DNA from: Thioalkalivibrio sp. ALJT
Lineage (GTDB): Bacteria; Pseudomonadota; Gammaproteobacteria; Ectothiorhodospirales; Ectothiorhodospiraceae
Assembly: GCF_000381825.1 (NCBI RefSeq)
Contig: NZ_KB907124.1
Span: forward strand, 62,001-126,000
Length of the DNA stretch: 64,000 nt
Direction: 5' to 3'
Position numbers and translations under genes: made by a program. How positions within the stretch are numbered: position 1 is the first letter of the stretch; each line of letters begins with the position of its first letter. Below, piece after piece: positions 6,738 through 20,418 of this stretch. The notes under the pieces were generated by a model that was not told the origin of the DNA, did not search any database, and was given only the letters and a program-made list of their open reading frames with translations.

Positions 6738-6814
6738 TGGTAGGCGCGATTGGACTCGAACCAACGACCCCCACCATGTCAAGGTGGTGCTCTAACCAGC
6801 TGAGCTACGCGCCT
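6738..6814 (-). tRNA. tRNA-Val(GAC)
   Basis: On the minus strand the sequence folds into a full cloverleaf of 77 nt including an encoded CCA. The acceptor stem is AGGCGCG/CGCGCCT with discriminator A. The D arm contains AGCTCAGCTGGTTAGAGC. The anticodon stem is CCACC/GGTGG with loop TTGACAT (anticodon GAC, valine GTC codons). The T arm is GTTGG-TTCGAGT-CCAAT. It has its own promoter upstream and shares the 3' terminator with the convergent gene. Confidence 0.97.
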
Positions 6815-15030: not shown

Positions 15031-16035
15031 ATGAAGATCGACCAGTTGGCCGAGACCGCCGAGGCGATGGTGGCGCCCGGCAAGGGCATCATCGCCATTG
15101 ATGAATCCACCGGTACGATTGCCAGGCGCCTGGCGGCCGTCGGGGTGGAGAACTCGGAGGAAAACCGGCGAACCTATCGCGAGCTGTTGCTGACTACCCC
15201 GGGCCTGAACGAATACATCTCCGGGGCGATCCTCTACGACGAGACCATTCGCCAGTCCACTCGGGCTGGCCGCCCGTTCGTCGACGTGATGCGGGAGGCC
15301 GGCATCCTGCCCGGTATCAAGGTGGATACCGGGGCGAAGGATCTGGCCGGTTTTCCGGGGGAAAAGGTGACCGAGGGTCTGGACGGCCTGCGCGAGCGCC
15401 TGGCGGCCTATGCCGGGATGGGCGCACGCTTTGCCAAGTGGCGAGCGGTGATCACGATTGGCGAGACCATGCCTACTGACACCTGTATCGAAGCAAACGC
15501 GCATGCCCTGGCCCGGTATGCGGCCCTGTGCCAGGAGCAGGGGATCGTACCGATGGTGGAACCGGAAGTCCTGATGGACGGGGACCACGATATCGAGACC
15601 TGCTATGGCGTGACCGAGGTCACCCTGAGGGCGGTATTCAAGGCCCTGTACGAACACCACGTACTGCTCGAAGGCGCCATCCTGAAGGCGAGCATGGTGT
15701 TGCCCGGGAAGGACTGCCCCGAGCAGGTCGACGTCGAGGATGTCGCGCACGCGACCCTGCGCTGCCTGGAGTCCGCAGTGCCAGCCATCCTGCCGGGCAT
15801 CGTGTTCCTTTCGGGTGGCCAGAGTGATGCGGATGCAACCCGGCATCTGGACGCGATAAACCGGATCGGCGGGGCGCCGTGGCCGCTGTCATTCTCGTAC
15901 GGTCGGGGCATGCAGCAGGCGGCGTTGCAGCTTTGGGGGCAGGACATGGCCGGAAACTACGAGAAGGCGCAGCAGACCGTGTATGCACGAGCGCGCGATA
16001 ACGGGTTGGCCTCTCAGGGCCGGTACGGGGACTGA
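15031..16035 (+). CDS. Class I fructose-bisphosphate aldolase
   Basis: A 334-residue class I (Schiff-base) aldolase of the animal/plant type, interconverting fructose 1,6-bisphosphate with DHAP and glyceraldehyde 3-phosphate. Recognisable blocks are GKGIIAIDESTGTIARRL near residue 20, FAKWRAV near 135, and LEGAILKAS containing Lys219, the Schiff-base lysine equivalent to Lys229 of muscle aldolase. FLSGGQSDADATRHLDAIN lies in the C-terminal third. AAGGAG precedes the start. The eukaryotic-type enzyme occurs sporadically in bacteria, including autotrophs. Confidence 0.93.
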   Translation: MKIDQLAETAEAMVAPGKGIIAIDESTGTIARRLAAVGVENSEENRRTYRELLLTTPGLNEYISGAILYDETIRQSTRAGRPFVDVMREAGILPGIKVDTGAKDLAGFPGEKVTEGLDGLRERLAAYAGMGARFAKWRAVITIGETMPTDTCIEANAHALARYAALCQEQGIVPMVEPEVLMDGDHDIETCYGVTEVTLRAVFKALYEHHVLLEGAILKASMVLPGKDCPEQVDVEDVAHATLRCLESAVPAILPGIVFLSGGQSDADATRHLDAINRIGGAPWPLSFSYGRGMQQAALQLWGQDMAGNYEKAQQTVYARARDNGLASQGRYGD

Positions 16036-16068
16036 CGCCGGATGCCTCGCCCCGAACGGGTTGAGTTC

Positions 16069-16082
16069 TTGATATGGATCAA
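16069..16082 (+). promoter_or_regulatory. Perfect FNR/Anr-type box
   Basis: TTGAT-ATGG-ATCAA matches the FNR/Anr consensus half-sites at all ten positions. It lies 33 nt after the aldolase stop. Its centre is exactly 41.5 nt before a predicted start at 16117 that has TAGCCT (16105-16110) as -10, the geometry of a class II FNR-activated promoter. Confidence 0.75.
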
Positions 16083-16116
16083 AAAGAGCGGGGGCGCGGA
16101 TGACTAGCCTGAGGGT

Positions 16117-16235
16117 GCCGGATTCGATTGCGGGGCCACGCGGGATGCACGTCTCCCCAGCGTGTGCGTGGCCGGCTCGTCTTCGGCGGTGTATGTCGCG
16201 TCTTGGCCTGCTATCTGCGGATAGCAGGCTTTTTT
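16117..16235 (+). ncRNA. Candidate FNR-activated small RNA
   Basis: Predicted as about 119 nt from the class II FNR promoter to a strong terminator. It contains an 8-bp stem GGCCACGC (16134-16141) with GCGTGGCC (16166-16173), inside which GGGA/TCCC (16142-16145 and 16154-16157) forms a second hairpin. A single-stranded linker follows, then the terminator stem-loop. No credible coding frame with a ribosome-binding site fits. The architecture recalls FnrS and Anr-dependent sRNAs, but no sequence similarity to them is evident. The start point is inferred from promoter geometry. Confidence 0.5.
16206..16235 (+). terminator. Strong Rho-independent terminator
   Basis: A perfect 10-bp stem, GCCTGCTATC (16206-16215) with GATAGCAGGC (16220-16229), has a TGCG loop and six T. 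It separates the aldolase/sRNA region from soxB. Confidence 0.93.
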
Positions 16236-16459
16236 GTGTGCGCATGCGGGGAATGGGGTGTCGGCCCAAAAGTCATCAAAATCGTGAACGCGCGTGATTT
16301 TTCGTTAAAAAATCAAAAAACGTATCGAATTGCACCGAACGGCTGCATTGCAGGCGGTGCGAACGGCATTCCGAATGGAACATTCTGCGGCCGCGTGCGT
16401 CGTGAAGCGGGAAGGGCGGTATTGTCCTGAACCATCTGAAGTCACCGAGGAGAACCTGA
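16236..16459 (+). promoter_or_regulatory. soxB upstream region with palindromes
   Basis: The 224 nt between the terminator and soxB must contain the soxB promoter. Two symmetrical sites stand out: an AT-rich inverted repeat TGATTTTT (16295-16302) with AAAAATCA (16308-16315), and the palindrome CATTCCGAATG (16367-16377) followed by GGAACATTC. They are possible regulator sites, for example for an ArsR-type sulfur regulator. GAGGAGAAC precedes the start codon. Confidence 0.4.
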
Positions 16460-18196
16460 ATGAGCCTTACGCGCAGAGAGTTTCTTGAAGCGATGGTTGC
16501 GGCAAGCGCAGCCGGATTCTCGATGAATGCCTGGGCCGGCGAGAAGGGAAGCTGGCGGCCTGCCGATGCGGCCATGTACGACCTGCCGAAGTTTGGCAAT
16601 GTTTCGCTGCTGCACTATACCGACTGCCATGCACAGCTGAGGCCGGTGCATTTCCGCGAACCCGACGTAAACATCGGCGTGGGGGACATGCAGGGCAAGC
16701 CGCCGGTGCTGGCGGGCGATGCGATGCTCGAGTACTTCGACGTAAAGCCCGGCACTGCCATGGCGCATGCGATCACCCACCTCGACTTCAAGTACGCCGC
16801 GCATAAATACGGCCGTCTGGGCGGCTTCTCGCATCTGTCCACGCTGGTCAAGAAGCTGCGTGCCGAGCGCCCGAACTCGTTGCTGCTGGATGGCGGCGAC
16901 ACCTGGCAGGGTACCGCGACCTCGCTGTGGACTGATGGTCAGGACATGGTGGATGCCCAGAAGCTCCTGGGGGTCGACATCATGGTGGGACACTGGGAGT
17001 TCACGTTCGGGGCCGAGCGGGTGCTCGATGTAGTCGAAAACGAATTCAAGCCGAACAACATCGACTTCCTGGCGCAGAACATCGAAGACCGCGACTGGGG
17101 CGACCCGGTGTTCGAGCCGTACAGCATCCGCGAGATGAACGGGGTACCGGTGGCGGTCATCGGCCAGGCATTCCCGTATACCTCGGTCGCGAATCCGGAT
17201 TACATGTTCCCGGACTGGAGCTTCGGCATCCGCGACCAGAACATGCAGCGCATGATCGACGAATGCCGCGAGAAGGGTGCCAGGGTGGTGGTGGTCCTGT
17301 CGCATAACGGCATGGTGACCGACATGGAGATGGCACGTCGCCTGCGCGACGTGGACATGATCATGGGCGGCCACACGCATGATGCGGTTCCGGGTGCAAT
17401 GGAGATCGAAAATGCCGGTGGCGGCCGTACGCTGGTGACCAACGCCGGCTCGAATGGCAAGTTCCTCGGCGTGATGGACCTGGATGTGACCGATCGCGGC
17501 ATCCGCGACTACAGGTTCACCCTGCTGCCGGTATTCTCCAACCTGATCGAGCCGGATGCGGACATGGAAGAACATATCCGCAAGGTGCGCGCGCCGTACG
17601 AGGACCAGCTGAACGAGGAGCTGGCCGTGACCGAGGGCGTGCTGTACCGCCGCGGCAACTTCAATGGCACATTTGACGAGGTCATCATGGACGCGATGAT
17701 CAAGAAGATGGATGCCGAAGTGGCCCTCTCTCCGGGCTTCCGCTGGGGTATCAGCGTGCTGCCGGGCCAGCCGATCACCTTCGAGGAGCTGATGACCCAG
17801 ACGGCGACCACTTATTCGGAGACCCAGCGCAACGAGATGACCGGTGCGCAGCTGAAGAACGCACTGGAGGATGTGGCCAACTCGATCTTCAACTCTAACC
17901 CCTATCACCACCGCGGTGGTGACATGGTGCGTACCGCCGGCGTCGAGTACACCATCGACCCGCACGAGTCGATGGGGAGCCGTATCAGCGATCTGTACAT
18001 CAACGGCGAGCCGGTGGACGCGGACAAGAACTACGTGGTTGCCGGCTGGGCCAACGTGCATGAGCCGCTGGATACCGATCCGGTCTGGGAGGTCGTCGCC
18101 GATTACCTGCGCGAGCAGGAGACGATCCGGCCCGGCAAGCCGTACCTGCCGAAGCTGAAAAACGTGGAGGGCGACCCCGGTCTGGCGCGCTCGTAG
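16460..18196 (+). CDS. soxB: Thiosulfohydrolase SoxB
   Basis: A 578-residue periplasmic dimanganese enzyme of the Sox thiosulfate-oxidation system. SoxB hydrolyses the sulfone group from SoxYZ-bound cysteine S-thiosulfonate, releasing sulfate. A Tat signal (TRREFLEAMVAASAAGFSM) opens the protein. Metallophosphatase-fold ligands are visible in HYTDCHAQ (Asp55, His57), GGDTWQGT, GHWEFTFG (the SoxB-specific form of the usual GNHE), SHNG and GGHTHD (His305, His307). The C-terminal 5'-nucleotidase domain includes GFRWGISVLPGQPITFEEL. No other sox gene is adjacent. The gene ends at a dispersed repeat and a strong terminator. Confidence 0.96.
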   Translation: MSLTRREFLEAMVAASAAGFSMNAWAGEKGSWRPADAAMYDLPKFGNVSLLHYTDCHAQLRPVHFREPDVNIGVGDMQGKPPVLAGDAMLEYFDVKPGTAMAHAITHLDFKYAAHKYGRLGGFSHLSTLVKKLRAERPNSLLLDGGDTWQGTATSLWTDGQDMVDAQKLLGVDIMVGHWEFTFGAERVLDVVENEFKPNNIDFLAQNIEDRDWGDPVFEPYSIREMNGVPVAVIGQAFPYTSVANPDYMFPDWSFGIRDQNMQRMIDECREKGARVVVVLSHNGMVTDMEMARRLRDVDMIMGGHTHDAVPGAMEIENAGGGRTLVTNAGSNGKFLGVMDLDVTDRGIRDYRFTLLPVFSNLIEPDADMEEHIRKVRAPYEDQLNEELAVTEGVLYRRGNFNGTFDEVIMDAMIKKMDAEVALSPGFRWGISVLPGQPITFEELMTQTATTYSETQRNEMTGAQLKNALEDVANSIFNSNPYHHRGGDMVRTAGVEYTIDPHESMGSRISDLYINGEPVDADKNYVVAGWANVHEPLDTDPVWEVVADYLREQETIRPGKPYLPKLKNVEGDPGLARS

Positions 18197-20057: not shown

Positions 20058-20418
20058 TGGTGGAGGCGGCGGGAATCGAACCCGCGTCCGCAGGACCTCC
20101 GCCTTCGGCTCTACATGCTTATTCTGTCTTTGAGTTTAACCAGCCGCTACCCGACAGGCAGGGAATGCAACTGGCGATCCCGGTTGAGTTTTAATGGATC
20201 CACGCCGGGAGCGCTTCACCACGAGCTTGTGAGAGTCGACGCCCGATACTGGACGCACAAGCACGGCTCCAGTCGGACGGCATCTACCGGTTTTTAAGCG
20301 GCGAGTGCGTAGTTGTCGTCGTTGGCAACTATTTTTTTGCAGTGATTTTTACGAGGCTCACCACATCCTCGGCATGCACCTAAGGTTTCGCGACCCGCGT
20401 CGAATCCAGGTCGCCCCC
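20058..20418 (-). ncRNA. ssrA: Transfer-messenger RNA (tmRNA)
   Basis: A 361-nt tmRNA that rescues stalled ribosomes by trans-translation. The tRNA-like ends pair as GGGGGCG (5') with CGCCTCC, then A and encoded CCA at 20058. The 5' domain GGGGGCGACCTGGATTCGAC and the T arm GCGGGTTCGATTCCCGC are typical. The reading frame after the resume site encodes ANDDNYALAA and TAA, so the full tag is AANDDNYALAA, the same as in Pseudomonas. TATCCT (complement of 20434-20439) could serve as -10 giving a short 5' leader; no clear -35 was seen. Confidence 0.97.

Follow-up and report, generated by a model that had tools for sequence, protein, structure and literature searches.

A predicted FNR-activated small RNA between an aldolase gene and soxB in Thioalkalivibrio

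The interval between the aldolase gene and soxB of Thioalkalivibrio sp. ALJT, a sulfur bacterium of soda lakes, very probably contains the gene of a small regulatory RNA whose activator is FNR, the sensor of low oxygen. This interval was studied within a stretch of 64,000 nucleotides that was analysed as a whole and is called the window here; all positions are counted from its first letter. The reading that we favor, and in which we have good confidence, is that of an independently transcribed, FNR-activated and trans-acting small RNA of about 119 nt (16117-16235, plus strand, with a 5' end deduced from promoter spacing), which ends before soxB. As a predicted transcript it would represent a new RNA family, and its gene is well supported: the promoter anatomy, the structure, the terminator and the presence of genes for FNR and Hfq are all backed by sequence and conservation.

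The upstream neighbor, which lies outside the RNA, encodes a class I fructose-bisphosphate aldolase (15031-16035, plus strand; NF033379, 515 bits against a cut-off of 250) and the downstream neighbor is soxB, the gene for the thiosulfohydrolase (16460-18196, plus strand; TIGR04486, 815 bits against a cut-off of 550). Between these two genes follow, in this order, an FNR palindrome, a hexamer, the predicted start, a 5' domain, a stretch of weak structure and finally the terminator, with T6. The first-pass annotation had recognized no named RNA family in the interval, and the search of Rfam 15 agrees with it: no match reached the gathering score, and the sole match with E ≤ 10 in 16040-16300 was a plant-virus pseudoknot (E 1.2) below its own gathering score. 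The plasmid collection, searched in distant mode, gave zero matches to the interval. The same annotation had stated that no coding frame with a ribosome-binding site lies inside; frames of the ORF list do cross the interval (a TTG-started frame of 100 aa at 16128-16430 and a frame of 126 aa on the minus strand at 15889-16269), but none of the short frames within the RNA is kept in all the relatives compared. Elsewhere in the window, a tmRNA gene (20058-20418) and a tRNA gene (6741-6814), both on the minus strand, scored over the Rfam gathering thresholds.

The promoter region presents at 16069-16082 (plus strand) the perfect TTGAT-N4-ATCAA box that had been claimed for it, TTGATATGGATCAA, whose center at 16075.5 lies at -41.5 relative to a start at 16117. 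The TAGCCT hexamer is also found where it had been placed as the -10 element of such a class II site, at 16105-16110 (plus strand), 22 nt after the box. The window has a single such box, where 100 dinucleotide shuffles give an expectation of 0.01, and the 2.66-Mb genome contains four perfect boxes (each palindrome appears on both strands and was counted once) against zero for a reversed control pattern. In the 13 sequences with the order aldolase-RNA-soxB, both half-sites are invariant and the distance from box to hexamer is always 22 nt, with TAGCCT, TAGACT or TAGGCT as the hexamer. Averaged over all pairs of these sequences, identity reaches 1.0 in each half-site and in the conserved core of the RNA and 0.91 in the hexamer, against 0.44 in the spacer, 0.39 over the 30 nt that precede the box and 0.38 after the terminator. 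A fixed distance combined with a drifting spacer sequence is what one expects of a site for a class II activator. In two further genomes, G007 and G013, the second half-site reads ATCAC, with one base changed, and a 21-nt spacer leads to the hexamer TACACT or TACAGT. A sigma-70 scan of 15500-16700 found no promoter, as expected if FNR takes the role of the -35 element. The arrangement is thus the one of a class II FNR site, located at about -41.5 and followed by a hexamer at fixed spacing.

The genome also encodes the corresponding regulator: an FNR protein (NF008365, 255 bits against a cut-off of 228) of the Fe-S-cysteine type, with a C-x2-C-x5-C motif and a fourth cysteine, all aligned with the cysteines of a solved FNR. 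Only one other protein of the genome passes the HTH_Crp_2 cut-off, and this second member of the CRP/FNR type, judged by eye, resembles CRP. The gene for Hfq was present in all eight genomes tried. The other three perfect boxes of the genome are located near ccoN (cbb3 oxidase), near a gene for a hemerythrin-domain protein and before a 45-aa frame adjoining a gene of the OmpA family; the box associated with ccoN was also found in G023 and G029. A perfect box near a hemerythrin-like frame is likewise present in three genomes (L149, L142 and L150 in G000, G023 and G029), the frame matching PF01814 in G000 and being judged by eye in the two others. The region of the 45-aa frame (L143 1501-1720; G000:C1 from 266360) combines the perfect box, a -10-like TACGCT 21 nt further on, an AGGAGG and the frame itself, which has the look of a membrane protein and a terminator-like hairpin at its end; it is a candidate for an FNR-activated small membrane protein. 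Finally, G013 (L042) has zero perfect TTGAT-N4-ATCAA boxes genome-wide despite its RNA gene and a CRP/FNR-type protein, which counts against a simple generality of the box, and the box preference in this genome may have shifted.

The predicted fold starts with a 5' domain (16117-16187, plus strand), in which a 6-bp helix called P1 (GCCGGA/TTCGGC, 16117-16122 with 16182-16187) encloses the stems P2 and P3; this helix, an addition to the earlier description, closes the domain exactly at the predicted start 16117. P2 corresponds to the 8-bp stem already proposed, made of GGCCACGC (16134-16141) and GCGTGGCC (16166-16173), and the nested hairpin was found inside it at about 16147-16165, as P3 (plus strand, about 16147-16151 with 16161-16165). 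After P1 comes a weakly structured stretch (16188-16204), covered by the conserved core GGTGTATGTCGCGTCTTGGC (16188-16207, plus strand), a candidate seed region whose final three bases enter the terminator stem. The intrinsic terminator (16205-16235, plus strand) shows the 10 perfect pairs described for it and, in addition, one G-U pair, with its stem-loop at 16205-16230 and T6 at 16230-16235; this terminator is conserved and would end a short transcript. The 117-nt fold has a z of -3.14, with one of 200 shuffles as good, and the folds of four sequences gave z values from -2.35 to -4.88.

When 13 sequences are aligned with MAFFT, P1 and the terminator show pairing in 100% of cells, a value reached by none of 500 shuffles; none of 500 shuffles reached either their covariation score or their number of doubly changed cells, and pairing fell to 32-50% when the helix partners were shifted by sliding. 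In the same alignment, the three doubly changed pairs and the further pair types were not above the shuffles (274 and 500 of 500 as high, respectively), and the two terminator pairs changed on both sides only separate two clades. On the whole, the closing helix and the terminator covary modestly. Within clade A (eight sequences), 87.5% of the P2 cells are paired and three pairs are doubly changed; of the eight cells that fail to pair, four belong to L003, whose alignment is shifted by one base. The clade B sequences have central stems of their own in single folds, aligned by neither MAFFT nor the covariance model. An alignment fitted to the model (A6) displayed 21 pairs changed on both sides, a count that none of 500 shuffles attained. 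Since it puts stem P2 of clade B in the wrong place, our conclusions are drawn from A1 and A2, the MAFFT alignments.

The core is identical in all 13 sequences and carries one substitution over its 20 nt in each of the two other loci, L042 and L043, which fold differently and for which the 5' helix P1 is not predicted in its usual form. In the predicted folds its bases are unpaired with a mean probability of 0.53-0.58 in the 13 sequences, where a weak 3-bp hairpin leaves it only partly open, and of 0.43 and 0.67 in the two others. About 30-40 nt 3' of the RNA, the clade B loci L009-L012 present another short inverted repeat, rich in GC and with a T-run; T6 follows this repeat in four of the five clade B sequences, and it is possibly a tandem terminator.

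The first-pass annotation had named a covariance search in relatives as a test, and this test went in its favor: all 13 aldolase-RNA-soxB loci retain the box, the hexamer, the closing helix and the terminator, and two more loci keep the box with one base changed, the hexamer, the core and the terminator, with the 5' helix not in the usual form. The covariance model (R1), built from eight interval sequences, found the RNA in 15 of 30 genomes of the genus at E ≤ 2.3e-4, or in 15 of the 23 that are at least 90% complete (G016 not counted), while two further genomes matched only at E 0.7-0.8. Seven rows at E 0.1-0.8 were dropped, two of them on the reverse strand of the terminator and five being scattered weak matches, and they include the only matches of G008 and G016. 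Applied with stricter filters to 47 genomes of the order, the model returned the same 15 and nothing in the 17 genomes outside the genus. At the DNA level, 15 of 58 relatives gave a match, 13 of them with the true interval; the matches in G016, in G036 and at a second place in G021 were short and unrelated. The exact 20-base core was found at 12 loci of the named genome collection, 10 from Thioalkalivibrio, with T. versutus AL2 and T. thiocyanoxidans ARh2 among the strains that carry the RNA, and two on uncultured contigs, the latter two rejected as chance matches with no FNR box and, by eye, within coding sequence. Among 369 genomes of the class, the core pattern matched twice, in G000 and G023, which are the only recognized members of the genus there. 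In G019, a genome 66% complete, the aldolase gene is followed by a perfect box and, at 22 nt, by TACGGT, and the contig ends soon after, which keeps this locus out of the scored set.

In all 15 loci the RNA lies directly upstream of one soxB orthologue, on the same strand, and the SoxB encoded beside it is 77-100% identical to the copy in the window. G017 has a 72% soxB copy with neither RNA nor box upstream, and the other 14 genomes of the genus have no soxB match (G028) or just copies and fragments at 50-61%. Neither the box nor the core was found on either strand of the 15 loci extracted from these 14 genomes and G017 (L083-L097). Shared ancestry alone could produce such an association.

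The gene order also bears on where the transcript would begin and end. At 13 of the 15 loci the RNA follows the aldolase gene; in G007 and G013 the place of that gene is taken by a divergent tRNA-Ser gene, and no aldolase gene was found in these two genomes. One could suppose that the element is the 3' untranslated end of the aldolase mRNA with its terminator, possibly processed to a small RNA, and that the FNR box is idle or repressing; the aldolase stop codon lies at 16035 and a scan found no other terminator up to 16230, which would suit this origin. Yet the RNA, a near-perfect box and the hexamer persist behind the divergent tRNA-Ser genes of G007 and G013, so that the RNA is not just an aldolase 3' end and we regard this origin as very unlikely. 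The opposite supposition makes the element a regulated 5' leader of soxB, with an FNR-dependent start at 16117 and a terminator that acts as an attenuator with read-through into the gene. The common strand, the constant linkage and the 177-259 nt between T-run and soxB would all suit a leader. Against it stands a promoter-like motif, GGAAC-N16-CGTC, situated at 16377-16401 (plus strand) in the window and at the matching place in L002-L013. Of the 15 leaders, 13 have it, at a distance of 82-108 nt from soxB, and per leader it appears in 0-3 of 1000 shuffles. We take this motif to resemble the promoters of ECF sigma factors, and it is a candidate ECF-sigma promoter for the thiosulfate-oxidation gene. 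With two occurrences in the whole window against 0.79 expected it is not rare, and its weight comes from its conserved place; soxB is therefore likely to be transcribed from a start of its own, with the RNA as a separate unit. The motif is absent from the leaders of G007 and G013, which would suit a leader in these two genomes; against a leader speak also the strong terminator stem with T6 and the position of the most conserved stretch upstream of the terminator, similarity being lost after it (0.38 identity). Overall, we consider a soxB leader improbable.

Two further explanations concern what the RNA does. It might titrate a protein, such as CsrA through GGA-containing loops or Hfq itself, instead of pairing with mRNAs, and the target screens, which brought out no enriched antisense partner, agree with this. 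For 13-mers antisense to the first half of the core, with at most one mismatch, 135 matches were counted in 15 genomes against 143 for the control (150 before the removal of 15 self-matches to the RNA gene), and for the second half, 24 matches in 13 genomes against 38 (37 before the removal of 13 self-matches). Near-perfect 13-mers are a poor proxy for real seeds, and therefore these counts are a weak negative. Duplex energies at the starts of soxB (15 sequences), of the soxB paralogue (13) and of the aldolase gene (8) gave z values from -1.9 to 2.6 with no consistent signal, and the conserved duplex energy along soxB and the aldolase gene was equaled by 32 and 12 of 60 shuffled cores, respectively. 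A spot near +24 of soxB was rejected as a site: 4 of 60 shuffles equaled it and it lies within conserved coding sequence. None of the six near-matches in the own genome lies at a recognizable start codon, gene starts being not rigorously called. CsrA recognizes GGA-containing loops, and GGAU does occur in loops of the RNA (ACAAGGAUC in L009, L011 and L012); however, its best conserved part is the core, which is devoid of GGA, and its GGA sites are few next to those of the known CsrA sponges, so we give titration little credit. As to a small peptide, a GTG-started frame of 11 codons exists in all eight clade A sequences and an ATG-started frame of 10 codons in all five of clade B, but the two frames differ, neither is preceded by a Shine-Dalgarno-like stretch, L042 and L043 have no frame of at least 8 codons ending inside the RNA, and the core is invariant equally at all codon positions. 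A coding function is therefore hardly conceivable.

For the trans-acting small RNA that we favor, the following mechanism can be proposed. At low oxygen, FNR bound at -41.5 would activate transcription from 16117 as a class II activator, and the RNA would end at its own terminator, before soxB. The 5' domain would fold as a closed stem of variable sequence which buries the 5' end, and the invariant stretch GGUGUAUGUCGCGUCUU, between this domain and the terminator, would serve as the seed for pairing with mRNAs in trans, probably with Hfq. The features of an Hfq-dependent RNA are represented by the encoded Hfq and by a conserved stretch before a T-run terminator, with a core only partly open in the predicted folds. 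We infer the transcription, the oxygen response, the pairing in trans and the Hfq dependence. The mode of action would be like that of FnrS, although none of the tests used shows the two RNAs to be homologues, and by analogy with its layout, mRNAs which are dispensable at low oxygen are expected to be repressed. A more tentative idea, which we hold to be possible but rather doubtful, is that the RNA acts as an oxygen switch for Sox-type sulfur oxidation, through which FNR would tune thiosulfate oxidation or the electron flow to oxidases post-transcriptionally, and that this is why it accompanies one of the two SoxB paralogues. What suggests the link with sulfur metabolism is the gene order, soxB being the neighbor at all 15 loci.

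If made as predicted, this would be an FNR-controlled small RNA in a chemolithoautotrophic sulfur oxidizer with no detectable relation to FnrS, and a further sign that low-oxygen small RNAs arise repeatedly around one promoter type. The 20-nt core, fixed amid flanks at about 0.4 identity, offers a direct handle on the targets, and since the RNA keeps strictly to one of two SoxB paralogues, a connection of oxygen sensing with thiosulfate oxidation can be tested.

Among the known systems, PhrS, which is controlled by ANR, and PaiI, both from Pseudomonas aeruginosa, are comparable as small RNAs with a link to low oxygen or to nitrate respiration; the abstract on PaiI states a dependence on NarXL, and the RNA described here has no Rfam match. 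Among the papers found by literature searches on Thioalkalivibrio small RNAs or FNR and on small RNAs of soxB or Sox/thiosulfate, no title or beginning of an abstract describes such an RNA. Other structured RNA motifs reported from Thioalkalivibrio (mgtE, aceE-II, ykoW and smtA; PMC11109978) share with it the restriction to this genus; the main text of that article, which surveyed a Thioalkalivibrio genome, contains no occurrence of soxB, sox, thiosulf, aldolase or FNR, and its supplements may hold an unnamed entry for the present interval. The FnrS RNA of the Enterobacteriaceae (RF01796, where it is named frnS) is similar in its length of about 120 nt, its class II site at -41.5, from which FNR is described to activate it in E. 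coli (PMC3032703), and its 3' terminator, and differs by its neighbor genes; the RF01796 covariance model matched none of eight genomes at E ≤ 1, with the E. coli control over the cut-off. The fnrS of N. gonorrhoeae, which is induced anaerobically and depends on FNR, is described as having a class II FNR site in front of an RNA that consists of a stem loop at the 5' side, an unstructured region and a terminator at the 3' end (PMC3032703). Compared by this description, the RNA of Thioalkalivibrio has the same three-part layout and the same type of FNR site, but while the Neisseria RNA lies opposite a coding region, the present one is located between an aldolase or tRNA-Ser gene and soxB.
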